Shown: positions 11,069 through 53,890 of the stretch, in pieces
How the letters are laid out: each line of letters begins with the position of its first letter
Numbering within the stretch: position 1 is the stretch's first letter
Assembly: GCF_030817175.1 (NCBI RefSeq)
Contig: NZ_JAUSYY010000001.1
Coordinates: forward strand, 2,170,001-2,234,000
Reading direction: 5' to 3'
Length of the DNA: 64,000 bases
From: Agromyces ramosus
GTDB lineage: Bacteria > Actinomycetota > Actinomycetes > Actinomycetales > Microbacteriaceae
Translations under genes and position numbers: made by a program
Notes under the pieces: generated by a model
Told to the model about the DNA's origin: nothing
What the model saw: the letters and a program-made list of their open reading frames with translations, nothing else
Database searches by the model: none

Positions 11069-11508
11069 CTCGCTAGAAACCACCCAATTCGTCGCTCAAG
11101 CCCTACTGCACAGATGCGTCAATCGTAGAGATTTGGATCGATAGTGCTCAGGCGACCCTTCGATTTTCAGTCGGCGCCGACGCCGCACAATCTCGCCCTT
11201 CGGAACGGACCGCCTCGTAACATGCGCCCTCTGCCACCAACGTGATCATCCTCCGTGCTGTTCGGTGGGGGGCACTTGTGGGCAAATCGTGGGCACGGCG
11301 AATCGATGGACCCCACGCACGTCGTACTCGGAACCGGCGGCCGAACGGATCGATCTGTTGCGGTTGGGACGCCCCCTGCGGGCACTTCACCGGGCGGGGC
11401 ATGTGGGAATCACGAAGTTGCGACGCCATGAGAGTGAGGCCGGCCCGTACCCATTCCGCATGAGGACCGCCTATCGGGCCGCCCCGGGCGCCATGCGATG
11501 ATTTTGGG
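11069..11508. other. Non-coding region upstream of the integrase
   Basis: About 440 bases between the integrase start and the DUF2510 gene. Frames on both strands here are short and arginine-rich, with no ribosome sites or recognisable domains. It presumably holds the integrase promoter and the arm or accessory sites, but I could not point to a specific motif. Confidence 0.4.
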
Positions 11509-38400: not shown

Positions 38401-39397
38401 GGGCGGCGGCGAAGCCGCCGCAATGATCCTCGACGGACAAAACAGTCTGCTGCAGAAGGTGCTCGGCCTGCCGGGCGGAGCCACGGTGACCAAGTCCGGT
38501 GAGACGGCGTCGTGGTCGTATCCGAACATCCACGGTGACGTGACCGTGATCGCCGATGCCGCGGGAGCTCGAAGCCAGGGCGTGTACCACTACGACCCGT
38601 TCGGTCAGCCGGTGGACCCGGTCACCGCGCAGATCGGCACCTTGACCGCAGACGATGCGCTCCCCGACACGGTGTCTGACGGCGCAGACTGGGGCTGGCT
38701 CGGCACCCATCGGAAGCTGACCGAGCACGCAGGCTCGATCCACACCATCGAGATGGGCGCCCGCCAGTACGTACCCGCCCTCGGTCGATTCCTTGAAGTG
38801 GACCCTGTCGAAGGCGGTGTTACCAACAACTACGACTACCCTGCCGACCCTGTTAACGGCTTCGACCTCACGGGCCAGCGACAGGACTGCGGTGCATGTT
38901 CCCGGGGATCGATCACGTCGATCTCTGCTTACAACACTGCTGTCATGGCTAGAAGAGTCGCAGCTGCGGCGCTTGTAGCCTCGCTGGTGATCGCGGAGAG
39001 GGCACAACAAGTGGCGCGGAAGATGGGGGCGGATGTGCGAGTGATCCGAAACATCCCAGCCAGCACGGTCGGGATGGGCATCGCCGCGATGTCAGGCGCG
39101 AAATGCCAGATGGCGCCCAACGGTTTGAACGTTTGCGGCGGCGCTGCCTGGGGATACGGCGGTGGCGGCACGGCGTTCGGTGAGGTATTCATCACCCCGG
39201 TTCATGCCTCCGAAGCGATCCGGGACGCACCGCTGATGCGGCATGAACAGGCCCACTCGGTGCAGTACGCGGCAATGGGCAACGACGTGTTCGCGATTCT
39301 GTACTTCGGTAATATGTGGCTGGCCGGAGGGAAACAATGCAGCAACGTGTTCGAGGCAGGTGCCGGCTTCGAGGACGGGAATTATCCATGCGGGTGA
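32477..39397 (+). CDS. Secreted RHS/PA14 polymorphic toxin with HExxH C-terminal domain
   Basis: A 2306-codon gene. It starts at GTG 32477 with GAGGAG four bases upstream and has a Sec signal peptide (hydrophobic core [15 protein letters not shown]; likely cut after A41, in PAYA-EET). An acidic, Pro-rich linker and a DUF6531-like/RHS-associated region follow. Two PA14 domains lie at about 774-925 (GLKGEYFD) and 1308-1455 (GLNATWYDN), and then YD/RHS repeats. The shell ends at [15 protein letters not shown] near 2095-2110. The variable C-terminal domain (about 2135-2305) carries HEQAH at 2256-2260 and a later Glu in [14 protein letters not shown], the pattern of a zinc metallopeptidase. It overlaps the following lipoprotein gene. 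Confidence 0.85.
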
Positions 39398-40209: not shown

Positions 40210-40944
40210 TCATCTTGGCGCGTTGTCGTACTGGATCCCCTCGATGACGATCATGCAGGTTGCGATCGCCGCCAGAACCAAGCGTGCACGACGGGTGCTC
40301 CGCGCCGTCCTTCCCGCCGTTGGCGGTTCAGCACTCACAGTCACTGAAGGAGTGACCCTACGAACAGTATGGCGGCCAAGACCGGCCGGCGCGATGGCGA
40401 TGGTAGCGCCCCGCATCACGGTCGCAGCCCTTAGCGCGAGCTCCTCAACGCCGGGTGCGACCCCAGAAGCTACCACCCAACCACGGTCGGCCATCGAGGT
40501 TGCGAACTCGAGTGTCGCCTGCCGCGTTTCGCGAGACGGGTGACAAGGGCCGACGATGGCGGCAGCCTCCTCCGCGAGGACTGTCTCCGCGCCTCGGACC
40601 CAGAGCAGCAGCGGCGCTGCGTCCCCGAGCGCGTCCAGCCCCCGCGGCCAGCTTTCGTGTTCCGGGGAGATCAGGGTCAAGCCCAACCGGTCGGTCGTCG
40701 CGATCACGCCGTCCACCCGAGAGCCGTGCGCCTGGGAGGCGATGGGCCCAAACGGGCCGACCGCGTCGACGTCGGTGCCTGACTGCGCGTGATCTAGCAT
40801 CTCAGCGGCGCCGCCCAGGCGGCGGATGGCTGCGCCTACGACTGGGTCGCCGGAGAGCCCGGCGCAGACCAGTGCGACCCGCGCGCGGATCTCTTCGTTA
40901 GTGCGGATGGTGGTGGGAGCGGTACGTGGGGCGGTCCAGGTCAC
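40210..40944 (-). CDS. Divergent, truncated DprA-like protein
   Basis: A 244-residue protein resembling the Rossmann core of DprA/Smf DNA-processing proteins: RGLDALGDAAPLLLWVRG, then IVGPCHPSRETRQATLEFATSMADRGWVVASGVAPGVEELALRA in order, and VTVSAEPP near the end. The usual GGAYGID motif is replaced by SGVAPGVEE, and the C-terminal winged domain of DprA is missing. GTG 40944 (TWTAPRTAPTT) is chosen because the mRNA leader element ends 30 bases upstream of it. ICE DprA-like proteins may protect or channel incoming single-stranded DNA; that is inference. Confidence 0.6.
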   Translation of the reverse strand: MTWTAPRTAPTTIRTNEEIRARVALVCAGLSGDPVVGAAIRRLGGAAEMLDHAQSGTDVDAVGPFGPIASQAHGSRVDGVIATTDRLGLTLISPEHESWPRGLDALGDAAPLLLWVRGAETVLAEEAAAIVGPCHPSRETRQATLEFATSMADRGWVVASGVAPGVEELALRAATVMRGATIAIAPAGLGRHTVRRVTPSVTVSAEPPTAGRTARSTRRARLVLAAIATCMIVIEGIQYDNAPR

Positions 40945-40973
40945 GGCAGTGAATGTCCTCTCGGATCGATCAT

Positions 40974-41126
40974 TTTGTTTGCCTTCCGGCAAGAGAGATC
41001 GATTGCGAAGGGACAAGGTGCAGTGCCCTGATTGTCGGGCGAAATAAGCCCTCCGGGCGCGTCCGGCAATCTGGGAACGAAACCGCGGTCACGAGCTACG
41101 ATCGCCAGCCGGAATGGCCAAACAAA
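40974..41126 (-). ncRNA. Structured 5' leader element, copy A (minus strand)
   Basis: Read on the minus strand, this is the leader of the DprA-like gene. The outer arms TTTGTTTG and TTCCGGC (near 41126-41108) pair with GCCGGAA and CAAACAAA (40990-40974). Inside are hairpins CCGG/CCGG and GGGC-TTATTTC-GCCC enclosed by GATTG/CAATC. Like the other copies it has GATCGTAGCTCG near the start and AATCGATCTCTCT near the end. It ends 29 bases before GTG 40944. It is the most diverged copy and lacks the GCTTAGCAACCGCT core. Confidence 0.6.
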
Positions 41127-41254
41127 CCACCAGGGCAGTGCCGCATCGCGGCTCCAATTTCAACGCTCTTCAGTCGCGCCTGCTCCGTCAGGCGCCGCCC
41201 GCCGCGGTCGCGGCGGGGAACAGCATCGTGGTGCCGCTTCGCGGCGCTGCCTTC

Positions 41255-41430
41255 TTGGTAGTTCGCCCTGTCTGGCCGTTCATCGTAGTTCGCTCCGCCC
41301 GCTCCGACCCGGCCGTCCGCTATTTGCAGACTGCGCCGCTTCGCGGCTCCGCTTAGCAACCGCTCCCGACCGGGCGGTCCGCCGGCTCCCGCTCACAATC
41401 GATTTCTCTCGCCAGCCAGGCCAAACAAAC
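41255..41430 (+). ncRNA. Structured 5' leader element, copy B
   Basis: Outer pairing is TTGG (41255-41258) with CCAA (41421-41424), and CTGGC (41272-41276) with GCCAG (41411-41415). A long stem CCGCCCG (41295-41301) pairs with CGGGCGG (41371-41377). A terminal hairpin is GCCGC-TTC-GCGGC (41335-41347). The invariant GCTTAGCAACCGCT follows it, and AATCGATTTCTC lies near the 3' side. The element ends about 24 bases before ATG 41454, just ahead of the GGGAGGAGG ribosome site. Copies A and B are back to back, 128 bases apart, implying divergent promoters between them. Confidence 0.7.
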
Positions 41431-41453
41431 GGTTGGCGGGAGGAGGCACCGAG

Positions 41454-42134
41454 ATGGTGCAGACCACGATCCGGCCCACGACGGACGCGGCATCCGTTAC
41501 CGAGACGAACCGCGCCGAGGCGGCCGCGTTCTTCCTGCGGATGCGTCGCATGGTGGCGCTCGGCCAGTTCAAGCGGGTCGCCCGCGAGGCGATGCTCGAG
41601 CCCCGGCTGCTGATGGCAATGCGGGAGATGCTCGTATGGAGCAAGCCCCGGCAACAGACCCGAAATGAACGTGAAGCTCGCGAACGCGATGCCCGCGCGG
41701 CGGCGCACGCGCACTTCCTCGCGCACCGCCGTGACTACATCGACCCGCAAACCAGGCCGCAGATGCCGCCGGTGCGGATCGGTGCCGAGCACCGCACCGA
41801 GCAGCGCATCGCCCGCAACAACGAGAACGCACTCGCGTGGGCCCGCCGCGTCGCGGCCGCCCCCGAGAAAGTGCTCGCCCGCCATGCCTCCCACACCCCA
41901 TACAACCGGTGGGCCGTGCTCCGCCCCGAGTACGGGCCGGTCCGGAACCCGGACGAGTTCTGGGAGGCGCGGGTGAACCGTGACGTCCGCGCGGTGCGCC
42001 GTCGCGCCGAACACCGCAACTCGATCCGCCCCGCCGGGATGACCCTCGACCGTGCGCTCGCGATCGCACGGGACGTGCTCGACGCCCACAGCGGCAAGTT
42101 CCCCAAGCCCGATTTGCTCCCCGACTTCCTGTAG
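41454..42134 (+). CDS. Hypothetical ICE protein behind leader element B (226 aa)
   Basis: A 226-residue, strongly charged and mostly helical protein (Arg, Ala and Glu rich) beginning MVQTTIRPTTDAASVTETNR. The basic segment RMVALGQFKRVAREAMLEP resembles part of a DNA-binding helix-turn-helix. No known domain is recognised. ATG 41454 has a GGGAGGAGG ribosome site. It is under a copy of the leader element shared with the ParB-like gene, the DprA-like gene and 53070, so it probably serves ICE maintenance or transfer. Confidence 0.6.
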   Translation: MVQTTIRPTTDAASVTETNRAEAAAFFLRMRRMVALGQFKRVAREAMLEPRLLMAMREMLVWSKPRQQTRNEREARERDARAAAHAHFLAHRRDYIDPQTRPQMPPVRIGAEHRTEQRIARNNENALAWARRVAAAPEKVLARHASHTPYNRWAVLRPEYGPVRNPDEFWEARVNRDVRAVRRRAEHRNSIRPAGMTLDRALAIARDVLDAHSGKFPKPDLLPDFL

Positions 42135-42296
42135 GCGAACCGGCCGGGGCCCGCGAGGCCCCGGCCGGTGAGGGGCGATCCCCTCACACACCCCGAAACT
42201 GGCGAACTCTCCACATTCGCGGTTTGGAACTGCCCGTCGCGTCCAGCGCTGCACCAGTGTCAGACCGTATTCACCACGAGAGCGGGGGCAGAGGAA

Positions 42297-42665
42297 ATGG
42301 CGCGCTTCATCAGGATCGCGGTCACCGACATGAACGGAGACGGTGAACCGCTCCCGTCAGACCGCGACGAGTGGATCAACTTGGACCAAGTCACCAGCGT
42401 GCGCGGCATGCTCAGCCACAACCTCGTACGTCGGCACCGCCTGAACGGTGCCATCCCGCGCGAGTTCTACCCGTTGCTCGAGCTCCGAACTGCCGACCGG
42501 CAGACACGGCTGATCTCCCTCGGCAGCTACCCCGACGCACCCACCGGGATGGCGGCGCTGAACGCGTTCCTTCCCGCGATCACTGCACCGGCAATCCGGG
42601 ATCTTGACGCCGAGCTCGCAGCACTCGTGCTGACGTCCGGCCTCGACGAGGACCGACAAGCCTGA
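42297..42665 (+). CDS. Hypothetical ICE protein (122 aa)
   Basis: A 122-residue soluble protein from ATG 42297 with AGAGGAA upstream. It begins MARFIRIAVTDMNGDGEPLP, followed by WINLDQVTSVRG and LLELRTADRQTRLISLGSY, suggesting a small beta-rich domain. An upstream extension to 42168 lacks support. Function unknown. It is followed by an 18-bp palindrome and the next leader element. Confidence 0.5.
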   Translation: MARFIRIAVTDMNGDGEPLPSDRDEWINLDQVTSVRGMLSHNLVRRHRLNGAIPREFYPLLELRTADRQTRLISLGSYPDAPTGMAALNAFLPAITAPAIRDLDAELAALVLTSGLDEDRQA

Positions 42666-42682
42666 TCTAACACCCCTGCGGA

Positions 42683-42700
42683 CGCCGGCACGTGCCGGCG
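42683..42700. terminator. Perfect 18-bp palindrome between genes (possible terminator)
   Basis: CGCCGGCACGTGCCGGCG (42683-42700) is fully palindromic and GC-rich, with no T-tract. It lies 17 bases after the stop of the 42297 gene, just upstream of another palindrome GGCGCGGCCGCGCC (42720-42733) and leader element C. It could end upstream transcription or bind a dimeric regulator of the parB promoter. Confidence 0.45.
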
Positions 42701-42744
42701 CGATTGCATCCAGTGGAGCGGCGCGGCCGCGCCATTCTTGTGGG

Positions 42745-42923
42745 GTTCTCGTCCTGCCTGGCCGTTCATCGTAGTTCGCTCCGCCGACTGCGCACCCTGC
42801 GGTCGCTCTTTGCAGACTCCGCGCCTGCGCTTCGCTCCGGTGCTGCGCTTAGCAACCGCTTCCTGCGGGTGCTCCGCCGGCTCCCGCTCACTATCGATTT
42901 CTCTCGCCAGCCAGGCCAAGAAC
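42745..42923 (+). ncRNA. Structured 5' leader element, copy C
   Basis: The leader of the parB-like gene. Outer pairing: GTTCT (42745-42749) with AGAAC (42919-42923), and CCTGGC (42757-42762) with GCCAGG (42910-42915). Middle stem: GCACCC (42792-42797) with GGGTGC (42867-42872). Terminal hairpin: GCGCC (42821-42825) with GGTGC (42839-42843), including one G-U pair. The invariant GCTTAGCAACCGCT follows, and ATCGATTTCTCTCGCCAG is shared with copy B. The 3' end is 10 bases before the GAAGGAG ribosome site of ATG 42946. Confidence 0.7.
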
Positions 42924-42945
42924 ACAGTCAACGAAGGAGCAGCCA

Positions 42946-44298
42946 ATGACTATGACTACCAGCATCGGCACCGGTTCGCGGGTGGAGCACGTCCACCCCG
43001 ACGCGATCCTGATCGAGGACAACATCCGCGAAGCGGTCCACCTCGACGACGGCTTCGTCGCGAGCATCCGCGAGCACGGTGTCATCCAGCCGGTGCTTGC
43101 GGTGCGCAACACGGACGGCACGCTGTCGGTGCGCGACGGTCAGCGCCGCACCCTCGGCGCCCGCGCCGCAGGCATTTCAAGCATCCCCGCGTACGTGGTG
43201 GACGCCGGGGATGACCGGGCGCTGCGGATCATTCAGCAGATCATCGCGAACGACCAGCGCGCCGCGATCACCGAAGCCGAACGCGTAGAAGCATTCCACC
43301 AACTAGCCCTCGAAGGCCTCAGCGTCGCCGCGATCGCCAAGCGCACCGGGCACAGCAAAGACCGGATCAAGGCCAGCGTCACCATCGCCGCTAGCAACAC
43401 TGCGACCGAAGCTCTCGCCAATAGTGCCGTCACACTCGACGCAGCGCTACTCCTCGCCGAGTTCGACGGCGACCACGACGCCACCGCATACCTCCTCGAT
43501 GTCGCCACCGACCGCCCGCACCAGCTCGTCCACGCCGCGCAACGCCTCCGCGACGACCGGGCCCGCAGCGCGATTGTCGCCCGAGCCGTCGCCGCGCTCC
43601 ACGAGCAGGGCACGCCCACGGCCGTGGAAGGAGACGAGTACCAGCGCCTCACCGCGCTCACCGACGCCGCCGACGATGCGGAGACCCGGCCGGAACTCGA
43701 CGTACACGCACACGGCGGATGCGACGGCCACGCCGTCCTCGTCACTGCACCGTGGAACGGAAGCGGCGATCCCATCCTCACCCCGGTCTGCACTCAACCG
43801 GACAAGCACCGGCAGCGCTGGGCGGGCTCGGTGCGGCAGCCTCAAAGCGGGCCGATGACCGAAGAACAGAAGGCCGAGCGGCGTGAAGTCATCGCGAGCA
43901 ACAAGGCATGGGACTCCGCCGAGACGGTACGCCGCGAGTGGCTGACCACACTGCTCAGCCGCAAGACCCTGCCCAAGGACGCCACCCAGTTCGCGGCCCG
44001 CGTCGCCGCGACCAGCGGCGCGGACCTCGACAAAGGCCGGGCGCTCGCGCACACGTTCCTCGGCGCTGAAGCCCCCACCAGCTTTCACGGCAACGCGCTC
44101 CCCAGCCTCGCCAGCGCGCAGGCCAAGGCCGGGCACGTGCTGCTCGCGCTCGCCCTCGCGGCGGTCGAGCAGGGCACCGGTCGCCATACCTGGCGCAACC
44201 CACACGACGGCCTCACTCGTGACTACTTCACCCGCATCGCCGCCTGGGGCTACACGCTCTCCGACATCGAGCAAACCGTGGCCAGAACTGATCACTGA
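42946..44298 (+). CDS. parB: ParB/Spo0J-family DNA-binding protein
   Basis: A 450-residue ParB-like protein. The N-terminal ParB/sulfiredoxin-like domain (about residues 12-100) contains VHPDAILIEDNIRE and the nucleotide-contact motif VRDGQRRTLGARAAG. A helix-turn-helix is at about 125-145 (LSVAAIAKRTGHSKDRI). The long C-terminal region is ICE-specific. ATG 42946 follows a GAAGGAG ribosome site and leader element C. ParB-like proteins on ICEs can aid element maintenance, transfer regulation or oriT activity; no adjacent ParA is present, but a ParA-like ATPase begins 568 bases downstream. Confidence 0.8.
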   Translation: MTMTTSIGTGSRVEHVHPDAILIEDNIREAVHLDDGFVASIREHGVIQPVLAVRNTDGTLSVRDGQRRTLGARAAGISSIPAYVVDAGDDRALRIIQQIIANDQRAAITEAERVEAFHQLALEGLSVAAIAKRTGHSKDRIKASVTIAASNTATEALANSAVTLDAALLLAEFDGDHDATAYLLDVATDRPHQLVHAAQRLRDDRARSAIVARAVAALHEQGTPTAVEGDEYQRLTALTDAADDAETRPELDVHAHGGCDGHAVLVTAPWNGSGDPILTPVCTQPDKHRQRWAGSVRQPQSGPMTEEQKAERREVIASNKAWDSAETVRREWLTTLLSRKTLPKDATQFAARVAATSGADLDKGRALAHTFLGAEAPTSFHGNALPSLASAQAKAGHVLLALALAAVEQGTGRHTWRNPHDGLTRDYFTRIAAWGYTLSDIEQTVARTDH

Positions 44299-44349
44299 TG
44301 AACGCAGCTGAGTGGGCAGGGCCCGTCGCTCTGCCCGCTCGGTGTGCGG

Positions 44350-44369
44350 GCGAGGGGCATGCCCCTCGC
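44350..44369. terminator. Terminator hairpin between convergent genes
   Basis: GCGAGGGGC (44350-44358) and GCCCCTCGC (44361-44369) form a perfect 9-bp stem with a 2-base loop. It lies between the 3' ends of the parB-like gene and the minus-strand gene at 44400. Without a T-tract, it may serve as a bidirectional hairpin terminator. Confidence 0.5.
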
Positions 44370-44399
44370 GCTCCCCGCAAAGCGCTACACGACGAACGG

Positions 44400-44723
44400 C
44401 TACCGGAGAATCCAGGCCACCAGCGCAGTGAGGTCATCGGTCAACGCATGCCGGCTCGCGGTATACCGGACCCGCTGCCCTCTCCGGGGTGCATCGATAT
44501 CGCCCACGACGTAACCCAGCGACTCGAGCTCCGCCAGAGCAGCGCGCACACCCCCAGCGCTCACGCCGGTGCCAGACACGATCTCCGGGCGCTTCGAACC
44601 AGGATGATCGAGGAGATATCGAATCACGCTCAACCGGGCATGACCTGCTACCGCTTCATGGGCAGCGGCAGCGCGAACGGGCATCCCCGCCAGATCCACG
44701 CGCTTGGGCATGCAGCCAATCAT
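44400..44723 (-). CDS. Winged-helix (MarR/ArsR-like) regulator
   Basis: A 107-residue protein with a winged-helix fold: HARLSVIRYLLDHPGSKRPE, IVSGTGVSAGGVRAALAELE, LGYVVGDIDAPRRGQRVRYT, RHALTDDLTALVAWILR. ATG 44723 and ATG 44711 are both possible starts. The gene is divergent from the T4SS operon beginning at 44866 and is well placed to regulate it. No direct operator was identified in the 142-base intergenic region. Confidence 0.65.
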   Translation of the reverse strand: MIGCMPKRVDLAGMPVRAAAAHEAVAGHARLSVIRYLLDHPGSKRPEIVSGTGVSAGGVRAALAELESLGYVVGDIDAPRRGQRVRYTASRHALTDDLTALVAWILR

Positions 44724-44865
44724 GCCCCACACGCAGCGCTTGCGGCCCGATTCTTCGATGTCAAAGAATGCTATTGAGTAGCAATGCGGACAACTGGCGC
44801 GATACAGTCGGTGCCATCCGTTACCCTCACTTGGGGGACAGGGATCTGGTGACTGAGGGGCTGCC

Positions 44866-46263
44866 ATGACTGAGATTTTCTCGCCGTCGAAGACTGAGGT
44901 ACTTGAAGGAACGACGTGTCCGGGGTGCGGGTCGAGACAGGTCGGCGCGAAATTCTGCACCCAATGCGGGGCAAGCTTGCTCCAAGACCAATCTGCCAAT
45001 GAACCGCAAGCCTCGAGCAACGAAACTCCCAGTCAGCGGGAAGCGCCTGCGACCATCGGACCGTTCCCGGGCGCGCACCGAGCCACTGGATACGTCGAGG
45101 ACCCACACACGATCCACGGCCAGGAACTGCGCGCCGTGCGGGACGCGGCCGCGGCAATCGCCGTCGACGCGGAGCCTGCGGAGATCGACGAGGCGCCGGC
45201 TGAGACCGTCGAGATCCCGCCGGTACGCTCGCGCGGAGAGATGCCGCCGCTGCCGAGTGAGCCCACCACCGTTCCGGCGTCCCAGCCGTTCGCGCCAGCC
45301 GCTTCGCCGGCCCACCTGCTGTCGGAGCCATTCAGCGAGCTTTCCACAGCGACCACGGCAGACAAGCCGGCAGTGGCAACGAAGGGCATCCGTGGCGCGC
45401 TGTCGCGCATCGGGATCCCCATGGCACCAGGTACGGCCGAGGCCGCGGAACTGAAGGCGGAGGGGGAGCGGCAGCGCTACGAACAGACGATCCGACAAGC
45501 GACGTGGACACGTGCCGTATCTGTGCTTGTCGCTAACCCCAAGGGCGGCACCGGCAAGACCCCGTGCGCTCTTCTGCTGGGCGGCGTGCTCGCCGCGGTG
45601 CGCGGCGGCTCCGTCGCGATCATGGAGGTTTCCGACGACCCGGGCGCACTCACCTTCCGCGCCGAAGGGAACCCGCCGCGCGGCATCGGCGAGCTTGTGC
45701 GCGACGTCGCGGAGATCCGCACCGCTGGCCAGCTTGCCGGCTACACGGCCCCGCAGACATCGTTTGCGTCAGTCATCGGCACCACAGGCCGCCGCGATCG
45801 TCTCACCCGTGAAAACGTGCGCGACGTAGCGGCCGTCGTGGACGAGTTCTACGGCATCCGCGTGATGGACTCCGGGAACCAGCCGAGCTCATCAGCGTTC
45901 CAGGGCGCGATCGAGACGGCCGACGCGCTCGTGGTGCCCGTCATGAACGCCGGCGATGCCGTGCTCGAGGCGGTGGCACTGCTCGACGTACTCCGAGCCG
46001 CAGGCGGAAAGGCCGCGGCCTTGGCAGACAACGCGAGCATCGTCCGACTCACCGACGGCCGACCCGAGCACCCGCAAGTGGTCGAGCGCGTGAACCGGAT
46101 CATCGCCAGCGCAAACGTGCGCCAGGTGTTCGACGTTCCCTACGACACGCACATCGCCGAGCGCGGGCAGCTTACCCTCGACTCTCTCGAGCCGGCCACA
46201 CGGCAGGCGTTCACCGCCGCCGCCGCAGGCGTCGTCTCCTGCCTGCAGCAGAGCATCCGCTAA
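44866..46263 (+). CDS. Zinc-ribbon ParA/MinD-like ATPase of the transfer operon
   Basis: A 465-residue fusion. An N-terminal zinc ribbon (CPGC and CTQC, about residues 18-37) is followed by a low-complexity Pro/Ala/Glu linker (40-205). The ParA/MinD-type ATPase carries a deviant Walker A KGGTGKT at 226-232, later VMDSGNQPSSSA and an end VFDVPYDTHIAERGQ. It is the first gene of the T4SS cluster and is 21 bases ahead of the VirB2-like gene. ATPases of this kind in actinobacterial T4SS operons may position the transfer apparatus; role inferred. Confidence 0.75.
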   Translation: MTEIFSPSKTEVLEGTTCPGCGSRQVGAKFCTQCGASLLQDQSANEPQASSNETPSQREAPATIGPFPGAHRATGYVEDPHTIHGQELRAVRDAAAAIAVDAEPAEIDEAPAETVEIPPVRSRGEMPPLPSEPTTVPASQPFAPAASPAHLLSEPFSELSTATTADKPAVATKGIRGALSRIGIPMAPGTAEAAELKAEGERQRYEQTIRQATWTRAVSVLVANPKGGTGKTPCALLLGGVLAAVRGGSVAIMEVSDDPGALTFRAEGNPPRGIGELVRDVAEIRTAGQLAGYTAPQTSFASVIGTTGRRDRLTRENVRDVAAVVDEFYGIRVMDSGNQPSSSAFQGAIETADALVVPVMNAGDAVLEAVALLDVLRAAGGKAAALADNASIVRLTDGRPEHPQVVERVNRIIASANVRQVFDVPYDTHIAERGQLTLDSLEPATRQAFTAAAAGVVSCLQQSIR

Positions 46264-46284
46264 CCACCAACAGAAAGAGCAGCC

Positions 46285-46593
46285 ATGCGCGAAACCGTCA
46301 TCCGGGCCGCGATCGACAATCCGCTCGACGGCATCATTCCCGACTTCTCCATCTTCGGAGCCGAGTTCACCCAGCTCTGGCAGAAGCTGCTCGCCGGGCT
46401 CTGGGGCATCGGCATCATTCTCGCGATCGTCTTTCTGATCATCGGCATTGTGAAGATGGCCAGCGCCTCGAGCAGCGGCAACCCGAACGAGTACAAGACC
46501 GCACGCACTCAGGCGATGTGGGCCGGAATCTCGCTGGGCGTGCTCGCCGCCCTCGCCGTAATCGTGGGCGCGATCCTCGCCCTGTTCGGATAG
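46285..46593 (+). CDS. VirB2/TrbC-like small membrane protein (pilin-like)
   Basis: A 102-residue protein with two hydrophobic helices (LLAGLWGIGIILAIVFLIIG, residues 35-54, and MWAGISLGVLAALAVIVGAI, 78-97) joined by a short loop, the topology of VirB2/TrbC pilins and actinobacterial T4SS pilin-like proteins. It lacks an obvious signal peptide. Its position between the ATPase and the VirB8-like gene supports the assignment. The start ATG 46285 has GAAAGAGCA upstream. Confidence 0.65.
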   Translation: MRETVIRAAIDNPLDGIIPDFSIFGAEFTQLWQKLLAGLWGIGIILAIVFLIIGIVKMASASSSGNPNEYKTARTQAMWAGISLGVLAALAVIVGAILALFG

Positions 46594-46599
46594 GCCCGC

Positions 46600-47280
46600 G
46601 TGATGCGAGCCGAAACGCGACCGCCGCGACGGAAATGGCCCTGGATCGTCTCCGGTGCCGCCCTCGCAGCTCTTCTCGTTGTGGGAGGTGTCTGGTTCAG
46701 CGCGAACCTCACGGACAAGCCTCCGATAGTCACCGGAAGCCCGGGCACGGTCACACCGCCGCCGAGCAACGAGGACGTCGTTCCGACCGGATGTCTGGGT
46801 GGCGAAGCGCGCGACGCTGCAATGGTGCTCGCGGCGCAGGAGGCAGCACCGCACACCAGCAATGGAGCCGTCGAGTTCGCAACGGCTCTCATGCGTTGGA
46901 TGCACCAGTACCCCGTGCCGGTTCCTGAGGATGTCGCCGCAGTCGAAGCGTCCGTCATCGCGTTAGGCTCGCCCTACGACCTCACCGCCGCCTACGCGGG
47001 CGACCCGAACACGTCCGGCGCGCTCGTGCCTGACGGAACGCCGTTCTATCTCTCGACGGTTCCGGGATTCTGGAACCTAGAGAGCTATGCCGACGACACT
47101 GCCACCGTCACGGTGGGAGCCGGGGTCGTAATCAACGGCGAGCTGCACCCCACCTTCCGCATGGCTAAGACGTTCACGCTCGACTGGGAGGCCGGGCATT
47201 GGACATTCGACCAGGCGAGCCTAGATCGCACTACTGAGGAGCTCTTCTCGATCGGGACGCCGTACACAGGGGGCTGCTGA
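46600..47280 (+). CDS. VirB8/TcpC-like conjugation protein
   Basis: A 226-residue membrane-anchored protein: a basic N-terminus (RPPRRKWP), one membrane helix (WIVSGAALAALLVVGGVWFSA, about 14-34) and an outer domain with NTF2-like features (ARDAAMVLAAQEAAP, ATALMRWMHQYPVP, GYW-like DTATVTVGAGVVING). VirB8/TcpC proteins are core T4SS scaffold factors. GTG 46600 and ATG 46603 are alternative starts. Its stop overlaps the ATG of the following gene by 1 base. Confidence 0.6.
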   Translation: MMRAETRPPRRKWPWIVSGAALAALLVVGGVWFSANLTDKPPIVTGSPGTVTPPPSNEDVVPTGCLGGEARDAAMVLAAQEAAPHTSNGAVEFATALMRWMHQYPVPVPEDVAAVEASVIALGSPYDLTAAYAGDPNTSGALVPDGTPFYLSTVPGFWNLESYADDTATVTVGAGVVINGELHPTFRMAKTFTLDWEAGHWTFDQASLDRTTEELFSIGTPYTGGC

Positions 47281-48636
47281 TGGGGAAGCAGGAACCATGC
47301 AACGATCCGCTGTGCGTTGTCAACGGCATCGGTGAGCAGATCGGCGGAGCCGTCAACTACTGGCAGGATCCGTTCGGCAACACCTTCCAAGCGTTGAAGG
47401 ATGCCGCGGCCGGCTTGGCCAAAGATGTGCTGCCGGCGCTCACCGAGGCGACGCTGCCGGATCTCACCGCCGGGTGGTTCCTGAGCGCCTACGCGATCGC
47501 GTTTGCAACCGCGATAATGGCCGCCATCGTGCTGCTTATTCCGCAGTTCGTACGAACGGCGCGCGGCGCCATGGCGGGTCGCGATCTCTTGGAGTCGATC
47601 GGGCTCTACTTCCCGCTGTTCCTTGTGGGCGCGATGTTCGGGCCGATGTTCGGCTACATCCTCGTCAACTTTTTCCACTCGCTCTCGAACGTGTTTATCG
47701 AGTGGGGCATCTCAGGGTCGTACTCCGAAGTCATCACCCGCATGGAATCCCTCATCGACACGACCGATCCCGTGACGCTCACCGGTGGTGTGTTCATCGC
47801 GTGCGTGCTCATGCTGCTCATGGTTATCGGCCTGTTCTTGGTCGTGCTCATGCTCATCGTGCAGCTGGTCACGCTTTACTTCACGGGCGTGCTCATTCCG
47901 CTCGGCATCGTCTGGATCATCGACCCCACGAAGCGCAGCTTCGGTCTCCGTCTAGTGCAGCTCTGGCTCGGGATCCTCGCGGCGCATGCGCTGCTCTTTT
48001 TTCCTGCTCGGCTTCGCGTTCAACATGATGGCCGGCGCCATCGTGACACTCGGTGAGAACGCTCCACTGCAAACGCTCGTGACGTTCCTTGTCGCGATCG
48101 TCGCTCTGTTCATCGCGGTGGGCTCGCCGCTGCTGCTGCTGAAGTTCGCACCGGTCATTCCTACGGGGATGGGTGGCACAAATGGGCCGGCGCTCAGCGG
48201 GAGCACGATCGGTTCCAACAATATGACGGACGCTGGCAGCAGGTACGGCCAGAGCAGCGACAGCGGCTCGAGGACGTCGAGCTCGTCGACCACGAGCACG
48301 AGCGACGCAGAGCCCGCGACCGTCCAAAGCGGCGGCGGTGGACTCTCTGAGGTCGCCGCATCGCGCGCTGGAGAGGGCGCAGCGGGGGAGGCGGCCGCGG
48401 CCGGTGGTGCTGGTGCCGGGGGAGGGGCGGGCGCAGCTGGAGCCGAAGGGCTCGCCGCTGCGGGCGCGGCCGAGTCCGCTACGGGAGTCGGAGCCGCAAT
48501 CGGCGTGCCGACGCTCATTGCTGCGGCCGCGGTTGGCGCGGCCGAGAAGGCACGAGAGGTCGGCGAGGCAGCCTCGAATCAGGCGGTCGCTGCGATGGAT
48601 GACCAGGGCTCGAACATCGGGGGAGATCGGCCATGA
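47280..48636 (+). pseudogene. VirB6/TrbL-like T4SS membrane protein with an apparent frameshift
   Basis: One long membrane protein is split across two frames: 47280-48056 and 47986-48636. The first frame encodes the signal-like start MGKQEPCNDPLCVVNGIGEQ and about five hydrophobic helices, then breaks at LLFF. The second frame continues with LLGFAFNMMAGAIVTLGENA, further helices and a Gly/Ala/Ser-rich tail. Removing one T from the T6 run (47997-48002) merges them into about 451 residues with the TrbL/VirB6 layout. The shift might be a sequencing error, a true disabling mutation or, less likely, programmed slippage. Its stop overlaps the next ATG. Confidence 0.7.
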
Positions 48637-50282
48637 GCCAGACACAGACGCGCGCGATCGCGCGGCACCTGGGTGGAGAGTCCGGGCACCGGTCGTTCTT
48701 TGGTGGCACGCACTCGAAGACGCGAATTGCCCTGATTATCGGGTTCGTCGTCGCCGGCATGATCGTGACGATTCTCGCCGGCTGGCCGGGTCTATTGATC
48801 GGCCTGGGCGGTGTCGGTGTGACCATGCTGGTTACCGCGAAGACGCACCGCGGCACGATCATGGAGCGCAGCCGCCAGCGTCGACGCTGGAAGGCCCGTG
48901 TGGCTGCCGGCACCGACGCATTCGAGCCGTACGCCGTCGCGGCCTGGGATCAGGCCGAGCAGGCCGTGCACGCGGCCAAGGGCCGCACTGAGAAGTGGGC
49001 GGCGCAGCGCGAGCTCGCCGCGATGCGCGCAAACCCCGACGGTGCCGACGGTATGGGCTGGCTCGAATGCGGCCGCGGCGTGCCTGGGATCCAGTGGCAC
49101 GCACCCATCGGTGAGCGAAGCTACCTAGCCGTTACCTTCTCCGTGACGGGCCAGCTGCGGGGCATCGAATCAACGTCGGTCATGACCCGCGCCGCGGAGG
49201 GCTGGGGCGCGTTCCTCGCCTCGCGTGCGGTGCCGTCCGTGCTCGTTGAGGACGTGCAGACGATGACGCGGGTTCTGCCCGCCGACACGGCCCTGCAAGA
49301 GTTCTGGGTGCTCAACAGCCTCGACGCCGACGCGCCCGCCGACGCGATCAAGTCCTATGAGGAAGTGCTGCGCCGAACCGGCGACGGGGCGATGGTGCAA
49401 CGGCACTTCATCACGATCAAGTGGCCGCTGTCCCCAGCGTTCTACGACGCCGCACGCAAGTACGGCGATGGCCGCGACGGCTGGCGCGCACTCATGCGCG
49501 AGGAGATCGCTTCCGCGCACCGCGGACTGACCGAGGCCCGCATGGGCCAGGTCGACGTGCTCTCCGCACGTCAGATCGCAGCGGTGATGCTGCACCAGCA
49601 GAACCCCTCGCGGCCGATCGATTACGTCGTGGACTTGCACCCGTCGCGGCTCGGAGTGCGATCGCACGATGAGTTCTCCGCGCACGTCGTGGAGGGCATC
49701 GACCCGCTCACCGGCGAGCCCGTCGAGTGGTGGCACCGCACCGCGAAGATCACCGCCGATGCTCTCGCAACAGCACCGCGCACGCAGCTGTGGGCGCTGG
49801 ATCTCCTCATCGGTCGAGACGTCCAGTTCATCCGCTCGGTGAGCTTCCACATTCACCTGGTGCCGGCAGGCGAGGCGAAGGCCGCGGCGCAGCGAGATCT
49901 CGTGCGCGACCAGGCCGAGGCAATCTCCAAGAGCGAGGCCGGTTCCGTCGACCTTGACGAGACCGGAACCGCCATGAGCGCATCGAAGCGCCGCCGGATA
50001 GATCTTCGCGCCGGCACCGGTCACCACGGCGCGGCGTGGGTCGGCTACGTGACGATCTCGACGCGATCGCGCGACGAGCTCGCACGGGCATCCCGTCAGC
50101 TCGAGGAGACGTGCGCGACCGGACTCGGGATCGAATATCTCGACTGGCAGGACTCATTCCAGGCCGCGGCATCCGGCACGACGTGGCCGATCGGTCGCGG
50201 CATCACGGCGCACGATTCGTCGTTCTCCGCGCGGATCTACCGCGCGTTGGCCGGCAAGTCGGAGAAGGAGGCGATCTCGTGA
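48633..50282 (+). CDS. SCO6880-family T4SS protein
   Basis: A 549-residue protein with two N-terminal membrane helices (IALIIGFVVAGMIVTILAGW and PGLLIGLGGVGVTMLVTA, about 31-70). A large cytoplasmic domain follows with WLECGRGVPGIQWHAPIGERSY, FITIKWPLSPAFYDAARKYG and VGYVTISTRSRDEL. SCO6880-type proteins are a hallmark of actinobacterial type IV conjugation clusters and usually precede the VirB4-like ATPase, as here. The stop overlaps the next GTG by 4 bases. Confidence 0.8.
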   Translation: MSQTQTRAIARHLGGESGHRSFFGGTHSKTRIALIIGFVVAGMIVTILAGWPGLLIGLGGVGVTMLVTAKTHRGTIMERSRQRRRWKARVAAGTDAFEPYAVAAWDQAEQAVHAAKGRTEKWAAQRELAAMRANPDGADGMGWLECGRGVPGIQWHAPIGERSYLAVTFSVTGQLRGIESTSVMTRAAEGWGAFLASRAVPSVLVEDVQTMTRVLPADTALQEFWVLNSLDADAPADAIKSYEEVLRRTGDGAMVQRHFITIKWPLSPAFYDAARKYGDGRDGWRALMREEIASAHRGLTEARMGQVDVLSARQIAAVMLHQQNPSRPIDYVVDLHPSRLGVRSHDEFSAHVVEGIDPLTGEPVEWWHRTAKITADALATAPRTQLWALDLLIGRDVQFIRSVSFHIHLVPAGEAKAAAQRDLVRDQAEAISKSEAGSVDLDETGTAMSASKRRRIDLRAGTGHHGAAWVGYVTISTRSRDELARASRQLEETCATGLGIEYLDWQDSFQAAASGTTWPIGRGITAHDSSFSARIYRALAGKSEKEAIS

Positions 50283-51730
50283 GCGAGCACAAGGCAGACA
50301 AGGGCAAGGGGATCTGGGCGCTGCCCGTCTTCCGTGCGTTCGCGCCACCCGTCGAGACGCCGCCCGAGGAGCGGGAGAAGAGCTCGAGCGAGATCGTGCC
50401 GTGGGATCTCCCCGGCACACCGTTGCGCACCAAGGCGTCGAAGGCGGCACGCGGGTTCTACGCGCCGGCGGGCGTTGGAGCGCCGACGACGACCAGGCAA
50501 GCGGAGATCCTCAACACTGCACTGATCGGACCGCCGACGGGCACCAAGGGCGTGGTGAACGGCCGCGACGTGCTCTCGCGCACATCGATCTCACATGACC
50601 CCGTGACGGCCTACAACTCGTCGCCACGCGAGGTGTCCAGCCCGAACACGGTTGTCATGGGCGACGTCGGCGCCGGAAAGTCCAGCTTCGTCAAGACGGT
50701 GTGTGTGCTCCGGCCTCTGCTGCTGCAGAACCGTCGCGCAGTCATTTTCGACAAGAAAGACCAGGCCGGCGAAGGCGAGTACTCCAACGTAGTGCGCCGC
50801 TACGGATACGAGCCCATCCGGTTCACCGCTGACGGCACCGGCACCCGGCTCAACCTCATGGATCCGATGATCGCGCGGGGCACGGGCGTGAAGGGCCAAG
50901 CCCGACTGCTCAACATCATCACCCGGCTCGGCCGCGGCGACCAGAGCCTCAACGAGTGGGAGGAAGAAGCGCTGCGCGCGGCTCTCCTCATGACGCTCAA
51001 CCGGTTCGAAGGAGGCCGCACGCCCGTGCTGGCCGACGTCCTGCCGAACCTGGGCGTCGTGGATCCCGAGCGATACGAGAGCCTGTCGCCCGACGCACGC
51101 GACAAGCTGCACCAGGCCGGCCTCTCAGTGCGTTGGACGCTGAACGGGCTGCTCGATGAGTACGCCGGCCTGCTGGACGGCGAGACGTCATCCGAGGTCG
51201 ACCTGACCGGCAAGCTCACGAGCTTTGATATCTCGCAGCTTCCCGACGACGGACCGGCCGTGCCGGTCGTTATGGCGATCGGCAACATGTGGATGCTGGG
51301 CCGGCTCCGGAACGAACGCGGCTGGGCAACCACCGTCGTGTACGAGGAGGGCTGGCACATGATCGGCGGGCCCAGCGCCCAGCTGATCAAGTCGAACCAG
51401 AAGCTCTCCCGCGGGCTCGGGATTTCCAACGTGTTCGTGATGCACAAAGGCACCGACATCCCACGGGACTCTCCCGGCATCACGATCGTCCAAGAGGCGC
51501 AGAGCATCTACACGTTCCGACAGGGCCGGCCCGAAGATGCCCAGTGGGCGCAGGAGACGTTCGGGTTCGCCCCCGAGACCGCGCAGACGATCGAGAAGCT
51601 GCGCGATGGTTACTACATCTTCAAGTACGGATCGCACCCCGAGACGCACGTGCAGCACATTCGCTCGCAGTGGGAAATCGATGTGACCAACACCGACGAG
51701 GCGTTGGCCGCGGCCGCGGGCCGCGAGTAG
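50279..51730 (+). CDS. virB4: VirB4-like conjugation ATPase
   Basis: A 483-residue ATPase corresponding to the C-terminal motor part of VirB4. Walker A is GDVGAGKSS at residues 128-136 (K134, S135), a Walker B-like VVYEEGWHM lies near 355-363, and FVMHKGTDIPRDSPGI near 380-400 is the usual VirB4/TraC-type region. A GTG start at 50279 overlaps the SCO6880 stop. In actinobacterial systems the VirB4 activity is split between these two genes. It would energise assembly of the channel. Confidence 0.85.
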   Translation: MSEHKADKGKGIWALPVFRAFAPPVETPPEEREKSSSEIVPWDLPGTPLRTKASKAARGFYAPAGVGAPTTTRQAEILNTALIGPPTGTKGVVNGRDVLSRTSISHDPVTAYNSSPREVSSPNTVVMGDVGAGKSSFVKTVCVLRPLLLQNRRAVIFDKKDQAGEGEYSNVVRRYGYEPIRFTADGTGTRLNLMDPMIARGTGVKGQARLLNIITRLGRGDQSLNEWEEEALRAALLMTLNRFEGGRTPVLADVLPNLGVVDPERYESLSPDARDKLHQAGLSVRWTLNGLLDEYAGLLDGETSSEVDLTGKLTSFDISQLPDDGPAVPVVMAIGNMWMLGRLRNERGWATTVVYEEGWHMIGGPSAQLIKSNQKLSRGLGISNVFVMHKGTDIPRDSPGITIVQEAQSIYTFRQGRPEDAQWAQETFGFAPETAQTIEKLRDGYYIFKYGSHPETHVQHIRSQWEIDVTNTDEALAAAAGRE

Positions 51731-51734
51731 CGGC

Positions 51735-52799
51735 ATGGGAGCGGGCAAGATCGCACTGGCCGCCGGCGTGGCACTCCTGCTCACGCTCGGCGGGGCAGTC
51801 GCGATCAGTTCGGCATCCGCCAGCTGCGGCGGCGGCTCGGTGAACCTCGCAAGCGTCGGCACCAGCGCGCCGGTCGCCGGCTACTCGGGTGACCAACTCA
51901 CGATCGCCGGCACGATCATCAACGCCGCGGCCGAGCTGGGGCTCGACAGCCGCGCTGCCGTGATCGCGGTGATGACCAGCATGGGCGAGTCGAGCCTCCG
52001 GAACCTGAACCACGGCGATGCCGTCGATAACATGACCATCGGCGTGTTCCAGCAGGGCGAGAGCTATGGCCCGCGGGCCGATCGGCTCGACCCGAAGAAG
52101 GCCGCGACGGCGTTTCTGACGCGGCTTGTGCAGGTTCCCGGCTGGGCGACGATGCCGCCCTCGCTGGCCGCTCATGAGGTTCAGATCAACCAGGATCCCG
52201 ACCACTACACGAAGTTCTACCCCGCGGCGGTCGAGGTCGTCGGCGCGCTCACGAGCAGCGCCGGGGGCGGCTCGTGCAGTGTCGGCGGGGACTCCCAGGC
52301 GCTCGCGCAGGAGCTCATAGCCGCGGCCGGCAACGGCCAGCTGCGCGTGCTCGAGCCGCGCTACCTCTCCCAGATCGAGGCTGTGGCAGCCGGGCAGAAC
52401 ATGCCCGACTGCGGAATCGACGCTGGCATCCTCCAGATCATGGTGCTCGCCGTGCGATCGTTCGAGACGGTCGGCGTCAGCGACATCAACCGCAAGTGCA
52501 CCGGCTCACTACTCGGAGCCGGAACCGGATCATCCCACTGGATCAACGGCGGCGGCGCAGCCGTCGACTTCTACGCGCTCGACGGGCGGACACTTACGGG
52601 CGCGGATCCCCAATCGATCCGGCTCGTCTCGATGCTCGACCCGATCATGCCCGAAGGCGCACGCGTCGGGCAGTCGCAATGCCGCGACCAGGCCACCATC
52701 TCACTCGCGCTTCGCAACCTCCGAGAGTTCCCGGACGACTGCAATCACCTGCACGTCGACATCGCCTTTGCGAAAGGGCCGCTGAACGTCGGCGGCTGA
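51735..52799 (+). CDS. Conjugation-associated peptidoglycan hydrolase
   Basis: A 354-residue secreted enzyme with an N-terminal hydrophobic segment (IALAAGVALLLTLGGAVAIS). A lysozyme-like half (DSRAAVIAVMTSMGESSLRN, IGVFQQGESYGPRADRLDP) is followed by a C-terminal region with SSHWINGGGAAVDFYALDGRT (H268, D278) and CNHLHVDIAF (H338, H340, D342). The latter resembles the zinc-peptidase site of D,D-carboxypeptidases of the VanY/M15 group. It would open the peptidoglycan for the channel. Domain identification of the second half is tentative. Confidence 0.7.
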   Translation: MGAGKIALAAGVALLLTLGGAVAISSASASCGGGSVNLASVGTSAPVAGYSGDQLTIAGTIINAAAELGLDSRAAVIAVMTSMGESSLRNLNHGDAVDNMTIGVFQQGESYGPRADRLDPKKAATAFLTRLVQVPGWATMPPSLAAHEVQINQDPDHYTKFYPAAVEVVGALTSSAGGGSCSVGGDSQALAQELIAAAGNGQLRVLEPRYLSQIEAVAAGQNMPDCGIDAGILQIMVLAVRSFETVGVSDINRKCTGSLLGAGTGSSHWINGGGAAVDFYALDGRTLTGADPQSIRLVSMLDPIMPEGARVGQSQCRDQATISLALRNLREFPDDCNHLHVDIAFAKGPLNVGG

Positions 52800-52865
52800 G
52801 GGAAGGACCCACAGGCCTAGTCGGTCAACATTGCCCGCAAAGTGCGGCGTGCCGTGAGTCCGTAG

Positions 52866-53057
52866 GTGATCGTTTCCTTTGCCCTTCCCGCTCTCCGACC
52901 GTAGCTCGCTCCGTCGGCTGCGTGCTCTCCGCTCGCTATTCGCAGACTCCGCCCTCCGCTGCGCTCCGGGCTGCGCTTAGCAACCGCTCCCTGCGAGCAC
53001 TCCGCCGTCTCCGCTCCCTCTCGATCTCCACGCCGGAAGGGCAAAGGAAACGATCAC
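52866..53057 (+). ncRNA. Structured 5' leader element, copy D
   Basis: The leader of the 53070 gene. The outer arms are a perfect 24-bp inverted repeat (52865-52888 with 53035-53058) abutting the AAGGAGAG ribosome site. Middle stem: GTGCTC (52922-52927) with GAGCAC (52995-53000). Terminal hairpin: GCCC (52951-52954) with GGGC (52968-52971). The invariant GCTTAGCAACCGCT is at about 52974-52987. The paired sequences differ from copies B and C but pair in the same places. The element starts 66 bases after the stop of the peptidoglycan hydrolase gene. Confidence 0.75.
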
Positions 53058-53069
53058 CAAGGAGAGAGC

Positions 53070-53282
53070 ATGGCCAGCACGACGTTCGACATTCAGGTCA
53101 TCAAGACCACCATCTCGACTCAGGCCCCGGTGCATATCGTCAGTGAGAAGCTGGCTTCGCGCCGTGTGGATCTGCAGGGTTTCGGCCAGCACGGCTACGA
53201 GCTCGTCTCGACGCTCAAGCTCGAGGGTCAGGGCTTCGTCACCCTCGTGGACACCATCCAGCGGCCGGTCTCAACGGAGTAG
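53070..53282 (+). CDS. Small ICE protein behind leader element D (70 aa)
   Basis: A 70-residue protein beginning MASTTFDIQVIKTTISTQAP and ending LVDTIQRPVSTE, with a mixed beta/alpha pattern and no membrane helix. No family recognised. ATG 53070 has AAGGAGAG right after the long leader stem. Its sharing of the leader element with the parB-like and DprA-like genes implies an ICE function, for example transfer control or antirestriction, but the sequence gives no direct clue. Confidence 0.6.
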   Translation: MASTTFDIQVIKTTISTQAPVHIVSEKLASRRVDLQGFGQHGYELVSTLKLEGQGFVTLVDTIQRPVSTE

Positions 53283-53524: not shown

Positions 53525-53890
53525 ATGCAGTGCGGCTCAGTGCACGACTTCTCAGGGATCCTGACGGCCGCGGCGCAAGTTTGGGGCGTGATCACACTCG
53601 ACCTCGGCGTCGACACAACCACGCCTGCCGGGAAGCTTGTCGCCAACGTGATGGCAGCAGTTGCCGAATGGGAGCGAGACATGATCGCTCTTCGTGCGAA
53701 GGAAGGCCTAGCTGCAGCGCGAGCTAAGGGCGTTCGCCTTGGCCGACCTCAGAGCCAGGACCCTGGTGTCGTTCGTCGCATCGCGCTGGCACAAGGCCGG
53801 CCTGACCTACCGCTCTATCGCCGAACGATTGAATGACAATTCGGTACCCCTACCCGGAACCGGGAATCGCTGGCACCCCCGGCTCGGTGC
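53525..53890 (+). pseudogene. Decayed serine recombinase (resolvase) fragment
   Basis: The C-terminal half of a resolvase/invertase catalytic domain is seen in WGVITLDLGVDTTTPAGKLV, ANVMAAVAEWERDMI and RAKGVRLGRP. The DNA-binding end (WHKAGLTYRSIAERLNDNSV) continues in another frame from about 53793, so there is a frameshift. The N-terminal part with the catalytic Ser is missing. It is a remnant of a transposon or phage recombinase near the right end of the ICE. Confidence 0.75.

Follow-up and report, generated by a model that had tools for sequence, protein, structure and literature searches.

Structured elements ahead of establishment-type genes in Microbacteriaceae plasmids and integrated elements as candidate single-stranded DNA promoters

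Four copies of a structured element at one locus

The stretch of DNA analyzed here, a 64,000-nucleotide (nt) window of the Agromyces ramosus genome (contig NZ_JAUSYY010000001.1, positions 2,170,001 to 2,234,000), carries four copies, A to D, of a structured element of ~150-180 nt. As the initial annotation of the window had proposed, each copy closes just ahead of a gene start and reads in that gene's direction. Copy A (40967..41120, minus strand) precedes a gene for a DprA-like protein (40210..40944, minus strand) with a DNA_processg_A domain (Pfam PF02481, E 5e-19). Copy B (41264..41435, plus strand) is followed by an open reading frame (ORF; 41454..42134, plus strand) that has no Pfam match and resembles a 217-amino-acid (aa) protein found behind a copy of the element in two Cryobacterium plasmids (tblastn E 3.9e-9 and 4.6e-9; clustering). 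Copy C (42750..42930, plus strand) lies ahead of a gene for a ParB-like protein (42946..44298, plus strand; PF02195, E 2e-7), which matches the ParB of a Mycetocola zhujimingii plasmid with a tblastn E of 5e-94. Finally, copy D (52880..53056, plus strand) serves a 70-aa ORF (53070..53282, plus strand), likewise devoid of a Pfam match, that clusters with a 67-aa protein situated behind a copy in plasmid pA28BH2. The distance from the end of the element, as modeled below, to the start codon is 22 nt for A, 18 for B, 15 for C, and 13 for D.

Copies B to D share the words CGTAG[TC]TCGCTCCG, CAGACT, GCTTAGCAACCGCT, and ATCGAT[TC]TC, and the outer arms of D (52865-52888 and 53035-53058) form a perfect 24-bp stem, with which copy D extends over 52865-53058; both features had been described beforehand and are borne out by the sequence.

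A covarying family and the genes behind it

A BLAST search of plasmids with copy B returned seven records, from Mycetocola, Cryobacterium, Leifsonia, and Clavibacter, and a reading of their intergenic regions yielded 17 copies alignable with A to D. The arms are common to all 21 of these first-aligned copies, whereas the apical module comes in three kinds, as typed by eye. Type 1, CAGATTTTCGGACGCGG..TTATTTCGCCCGAAATTCTG, occurs in 12 of the 21, including copy A of the window; type 2, TCGCGGCATATCC..GGTATTCCACGA, occurs in five; and type 3, TATTTGCAGACT..GCTTAGCAACCGC, is that of B, C, and D and of L126. Copy A has the same arms as B-D and a different apical module, which corrects any view of it as a distant outlier. 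A search with two shared words, allowing <=3 mismatches, across the window, the seven plasmid loci, and five motif-scan loci recovered only B, C, and D, the apical modules of most plasmid copies being of other kinds. Likewise, an exact scan of genome contigs for GCTTAGCAACCGCT returned mostly unrelated bacteria among the matches listed (80 of at least 119 stretches); the two stretches checked with the covariance model described next were L063 (Leifsonia sp. C5G2), with three copies, and L064, with none.

A covariance model, which the initial annotation had suggested building from the four copies, was built from the 21 and uncovered a large family in related actinobacterial genomes. The model recovers A to D at E 7e-27 (copy A) to 2e-16, with 123 bits for A, 114.8 for B, 114.7 for C, and 79.1 for D (cmsearch R1); since A to D helped to build the model, their recovery is expected, and the weight rests on the other matches and on the missing fifth match, none being found at E<=1 in the 4.0-Mb genome. 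At E<=1e-4, there were 155 matches in 92 sources, picked because they held matches, all of them from the bacterial family in which this search was made, that of A. ramosus itself, the Microbacteriaceae (L202 was excluded as a copy of L127, plasmid pCCa). Within this family, 53 of 299 genomes match at E<=0.01. Under strict filters that lose weak matches, a search of the order at E<=0.001 gave seven matching genomes out of 396, each from the Microbacteriaceae, and a search of the class with a second model matched 7 of 394, of which four fell within the family, one (E 2e-5) in a different family of the same order, and two (E 8e-4) in yet another family. In agreement with the earlier view that the element belongs to no known family, Rfam gave 0 matches at gathering score in the window; the best weak hits at E<=1, with positions 40900-43000 scanned, had E values of 0.17 and 0.19.

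The apical module is found more widely in plasmids. BLAST with one type-1 copy returned 56 plasmid records, including 18 from Curtobacterium, 16 from Clavibacter, three from Dietzia, and two from Arthrobacter, many of the matches spanning only the ~50-nt apical module; phage records gave no match to one type-1 query at E<=1e-3. In seven such plasmid records that were opened, the match lies just ahead of a ParB, DUF3846, glutaredoxin, or hypothetical gene, once leading into DUF3560. Arthrobacter has one full copy (150.5 bits) and another of 42.9 bits, and the Dietzia match rests on module and position alone (model E 0.39). The ~50-nt type-1 module (L123:16042-16091; L262-L267) is ~85-94% identical among plasmids of Curtobacterium, Clavibacter, Microbacterium, Arthrobacter, and Dietzia, and several of the opened plasmids that carry it have different arms (e.g., GCCGTGAAGGC arms). 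A single plasmid holds up to five copies (L128). One chromosome (G178; L230-L237) has nine dispersed copies, four of them within ~2 kb ahead of a MOBF relaxase match, apparently reflecting several related integrative and conjugative elements (ICEs) or their remnants in one genome. Four model matches (L217, L182, L192, and L245) lack a convincing downstream gene and may be decayed copies or cases of missed starts.

Covariation was measured on alignment A4, comprising the best 150 of the 155 matches (146 distinct). RNAalifold on the 21 copies had given a poor consensus of 14 pairs, and the structure of 24 pairs was therefore written by hand from single folds. Pairing is kept in 88.7% of cells over these 146 homologues, versus 75.2% in shuffles that keep relatedness; double-change cells number 418 versus 127 and fall at 22 of the 24 pairs; and the covariation score is 0.334 versus 0.112, a value reached by 0 of 500 shuffles. 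Since A4 was fitted to the structure, pair counts lean toward it, and the control in which the arms were slid, where the score is <=0.073, answers this only in part. Among the 40 copies of <75% identity, there are still 120 Watson-Crick double changes at 18 of the 24 pairs. A multi-copy, structured, covarying family ahead of ICE genes, as had been claimed from the window, is thus supported beyond chance.

The genes behind the elements are those of early or establishment functions of conjugative elements. Gene calls were made for 149 distinct copies, three of the five matches left out of A4 being added and two dropped as truncated at contig ends, with downstream ORFs chosen by script. In 114 of the 149 copies, 10-31 nt separate the model end from the start codon; six of the chosen starts overlap the element end and 29 are farther away. 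Among the 149 downstream proteins, Pfam assigned 24 to ParB_N, 16 to glutaredoxin, 13 to DNA_processg_A, 12 to DUF3846, 11 to ArdcN, six to SSB, and four to DUF3560, so that the genes served include ParB, ArdC, SSB, DprA, NrdH, DUF3846, and DUF3560. A single-linkage BLAST group of 36 of these proteins, the DprA cluster, contains 23 of under 200 aa, only two of which match full-length DprA (tblastn E<=1e-3). Directly behind elements at ten loci (L230, L232, L233, L234, L237, L184, L201, L253, L256, and L063) stands a family of short proteins, mostly ~83-134 aa, beginning M[RW]VF[IV]IDT.NM.PELQGG and weakly linked to DprA; one subtype lies just ahead of a MOBF relaxase gene, and another points away from ArdC or ParB.

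The folding strand and a conserved hexamer

Covariation by itself is blind to strand. Together with the position of the elements just ahead of start codons, in gene direction, it would suit a structured 5'-leader RNA, riboswitch-like or protein-binding, transcribed from the coding strand, which is how the initial annotation had read the four copies; such leaders resemble the Rfam leader and small RNA families in having covarying structure before genes, and divergent pairs such as A/B would require no special pleading. The asymmetry between the strands points the other way. With DNA parameters, 144 of 146 copies have a lower minimum free energy (MFE) on the template strand of the downstream gene, as do 39 of the 40 of <75% identity; composition, as judged from shuffles, accounts for 3.8 of the mean 5.8 kcal/mol advantage, and the z-score still favors the template strand in 119 of 146 (mean -2.17 versus -1.40). 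As a control, stretches from the leading region of the F plasmid showed no clear strand preference, the template strand being lower in 5 of 7, with some margins small and one stretch overlapping a gene.

The mismatches are equally one-sided. Among the non-canonical cells at the 24 pairs, coding-strand A.C (G.T on the template strand) occurs 157 times versus 93 for coding-strand G.T, and coding-strand pyrimidine-pyrimidine mismatches outnumber purine-purine ones by 172 to 56. A preference for G.U pairs would be expected in an RNA of the coding strand, yet A.C exceeds G.T there, which tells against a leader RNA. At 23 hand-picked interior-loop columns, the coding strand is 81% pyrimidine in the 40 diverged copies, i.e., G or A on the other strand. 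One interior loop, 3x3 in size, has the coding-strand letters T-N-C/T-N-C and hence G-N-A/G-N-A on the template strand; 113 of 146 copies have it in full, its N positions carrying almost no information (0.03 and 0.14 bits). A full tandem G.A is present in 135 of 146. Such sheared G.A motifs are stable in DNA. The lower MFE, the asymmetry of wobbles and mismatches, and the G.A loops assign the functional fold to the template strand, with the stability that an ssDNA (single-stranded DNA) promoter calls for. In the window, the proposed functional strand is hence the plus strand for copy A and the minus strand for copy B.

A hexamer, TAnnnT, is kept on the same strand by 142 of the 146 copies, the diverged ones retaining it in 38 of 40 cases. 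Numbered as a -10 element, whose bases sigma contacts, it has T(-12) in 145 of 146, A(-11) in 146 of 146, and T(-7) in 143 of 146, letters that are among the most constant of all; those between A(-11) and T(-7) are variable and paired. Facing A(-11) stands A in 100 copies, C in 35, T in six, and G in three, and the next position is A in 64, T in 62, and C in 19; with partners so variable, pairing does not explain the constancy of TAnnnT. No other window on either strand exceeds 60% TAnnnT across the 154 well-occupied columns. The hexamer occupies the 3' arm, next to a pre-opened loop and opposite a bulged base (column 202) present in 145 of 146 copies, and thus qualifies, by sequence, as a candidate -10 element on the non-template arm of the hairpin. 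In the window, the proposed -10 hexamers are TACGAT of copy A (41097..41102, plus strand, opposite to the coding strand of its gene), TACGAT of copy B (41282..41287, minus strand), TACGAT of copy C (42768..42773, minus strand), and TACGGT of copy D (52898..52903, minus strand). Taken with the folding strand, the mismatches, and the lack of an Rfam match, a -10-like hexamer kept on the other strand makes a leader RNA improbable, and this is the principal interpretation set aside here. If a promoter does lie inside the hairpin, most of the element would go untranscribed and transcripts would start downstream of it, an outcome that the initial annotation had itself named as speaking against a leader.

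Relaxase strand and a proposed role in the transferred strand

Relaxase genes were taken as a strand reference. The comparison covered 65 copies on 26 contigs, drawn from retrieved loci whose contig also carries a relaxase matching PF03432 or PF08751; chromosomal pairs >60 kb apart were left out. Fifty-five of these lie on the relaxase strand: all 44 copies outside the DprA cluster and 11 of the 21 inside it. In six named plasmids (from M. zhujimingii, pA28BH2, pCCa, pP27867_2, pP27867_1, and that of Arthrobacter YC-RL1), the elements and establishment genes, sometimes cargo, and then the relaxase follow one another on one strand. No relaxase gene was present in the opened stretches of Cryobacterium sp. 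LW097 (typed MOBP), and none is named in the tables of pCS1 and pSGAir0570_2 (both typed MOBC). The F plasmid has a comparable order, with methylase, antirestriction, SSB, ParB, and PsiB genes on the tra-gene strand, ahead of traM. As described by Samuel et al. 2024 (PMC11541004), the relaxase typically belongs to the lagging region, and the anti-defence genes of the leading region are encoded on the T-strand. The sharing of the relaxase strand, the six plasmids, and the order in F suggest, from geometry and with the nick strand presumed, that it is the template strand that is transferred.

The origin of transfer (oriT) was not used as proof of this, since two conserved inverted-repeat boxes upstream of mobC have opposite polarity. 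The first, in 16 of 18 loci, is GGAGCAAGCT plus a repeat whose arms change together; the second, in 15 of 18, has its repeat ahead of TCGCTGCGCTGG. Searching five plasmids for exact nick-like motifs yielded nothing consistent. The oriT-like region itself (L123:24760-24920, and upstream of mobC in L274-L289 and L174) contains GGAGCAAGCT and its inverted repeat, then often GGCATACTTG[AT]CGTATG, a second hairpin, and TCGCTGCGCTGGGCC before mobC (15 of 18).

Promoters that work in ssDNA are known from Escherichia coli and other enterobacterial plasmids. We consider that each element is probably an ssDNA promoter that a conjugative plasmid or ICE uses on its transferred strand, akin to Frpo and ssi in function, not in sequence. 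In double-stranded plasmid DNA, the element would be weak or silent. Once the transferred strand has entered the recipient as ssDNA, the element would fold into a long rod, which would comprise an outer stem of ~10-24 bp, a pre-opened loop, and a short duplex carrying the -10 hexamer TAnnnT on its 3' arm by the bulged base, and would continue as stems bridged by G.A-type mismatches up to the interchangeable apical domain. The host sigmaA RNA polymerase may bind this rod, with the 3' arm as the non-template and the 5' arm as the template. When the polymerase is threaded along the hairpin, the expected start (+1) falls close to the G that comes first in the right arm of the outer stem, from where transcription would run off onto ssDNA into the gene, giving a leader of ~40 nt with a Shine-Dalgarno sequence next to the start. 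ParB, ArdC, SSB, DprA, NrdH, and other proteins could thereby be made before a second strand exists.

In PMC7690428, Frpo and ssi are described as ssDNA stem-loops that present promoter boxes to RNA polymerase ahead of leading-region genes. The elements resemble those of F and ColIb-P9 in being hairpins before such genes, and the SSB, antirestriction, and ParB genes of F lie on the transfer-gene strand. They differ in length (328 bp for Frpo versus ~150-180 nt), in lacking a recognized -35 box, and in possessing a G.A-mismatch rod, three interchangeable apical modules, and actinobacterial hosts. No significant match to A-D was found in F at 45-70 kb (best blastn E 0.43; best covariance-model hit E 0.065), and by sequence the elements do not appear to be members of the Frpo family. 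Because Frpo also primes DNA synthesis, according to the same source, the elements could instead be ssi/sso or primosome priming signals whose main job is second-strand synthesis, with gene adjacency secondary, and the apical module sequence kept in plasmids of other families would fit such a role. A priming signal would not need up to five copies per plasmid (L128), placement at 10-31 nt before the start codon in 114 of 149 copies, or the gene classes of an establishment regulon, and we see little likelihood in it.

A third alternative places the activity in double-stranded DNA, the elements being operator palindromes or cruciforms of an establishment regulon under the control of a plasmid repressor or supercoiling. 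PMC8708921 reports such an arrangement for the pLS20 family of Gram-positive plasmids, in which several copies of an inverted-repeat-rich sequence, EGeRS1, precede establishment operons in regions of 400-600 bp, and in which ssDNA promoters are argued against. On this description, EGeRS1 would differ from the present elements: its regions are longer than ~150-180 nt, and the transferred strand in pLS20 is the non-template strand, whereas the geometry here suggests the template strand. A double-stranded operator would also permit both gene orientations and so explain the opposite copies of the DprA cluster considered below. A palindrome predicts symmetric conservation, in contrast to the strong strand asymmetry observed, with TAnnnT on the strand directed away from the gene, and we therefore think this reading quite unlikely.

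Several observations weigh against ssDNA promoters on a single transferred strand. Ten of the 21 DprA-cluster copies lie on the strand opposite to the relaxase, all ten ahead of proteins of 100-134 aa, and copy A lies opposite to B-D; these opposite-facing copies, including A, keep TAnnnT in 11 of 11 cases, which a one-strand model does not explain. The pLS20 precedent (PMC8708921) has the transferred strand as the non-template strand, and the boxes upstream of mobC are of opposite polarity. Cargo often sits between the elements and the relaxase, and where a copy is chromosomal, the closest relaxase can be as far as 60 kb off and may be part of another element. A -35 box at 16-18 nt was not found in the conservation table, read by eye; the letters at -34 to -29 approximate GGnACG, not TTGACA. 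In the window, the folds of single copies score modestly (z -0.9 to -1.7 on the template strand across A-D), B-D miss one of the four G-N-A letters (C at column 53), leaving only A complete, and the conjugative element looks decayed. Finally, the model is borderline or fails on the diverged forms from Curtobacterium, Clavibacter, and Dietzia (L262, E 0.0035; L264, 0.097; L263 and the Dietzia L265, 0.39), and their hexamer is unclear by eye.

One could go further and suppose an unrelated class of ssDNA promoters throughout the actinobacteria that does not need a -35 box, in which a DNA fold would stand in for the usual recognition by polymerase, a G.A-mismatch rod with swappable, aptamer-like apical modules presenting a pre-melted -10. 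In such a scheme, the donor would retain the complementary strand as ssDNA, and from it the opposite-facing copies ahead of short DprA-cluster genes would be transcribed, one design thus serving both mating partners; we regard this extension as rather doubtful. In the open-licence papers searched, we found no description of such promoters in actinobacteria. Should the elements indeed be ssDNA promoters, a second class, unrelated in sequence, would exist in actinobacterial plasmids, and transcription from incoming ssDNA would have evolved more than once or diverged further than thought. The family would also offer sequence and structure rules open to testing, and its members would flag establishment and anti-defence genes in plasmids with many hypothetical neighbours.

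The window itself looks like the site of a decayed, rearranged integrated plasmid. The gene block at 45364..52793 (plus strand), which includes a type IV secretion system (T4SS) pilin (PF18895), is syntenic by tblastn with the T4SS region of Cryobacterium pP27867_1; in the window it points the same way as ParB, the opposite of the arrangement in pP27867_1. Coupling-protein and relaxase queries gave no tblastn match within the window, and the A. ramosus genome has no PF03432 or PF08751 match. The opposite direction of copy A may thus be a rearrangement; all the same, it is counted against a simple one-strand model because other loci, too, have opposite copies ahead of DprA-cluster genes, and these retain TAnnnT. 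Other features of the window include a phage-type integrase (9968-11083, minus strand; PF00589), possibly from the same or another integrated element, and type I restriction-modification genes (20713-26406). A 2306-aa PA14/RHS-repeat protein (32477-39397, plus strand) has a 43% identical relative on the Clavibacter plasmid pCCa, ~5 kb from that plasmid's copy of the element. Adjoining copy D is a resolvase N-terminal fragment (53525-53836, plus strand; PF00239), and recombinase genes are found near such regions in several plasmids too.

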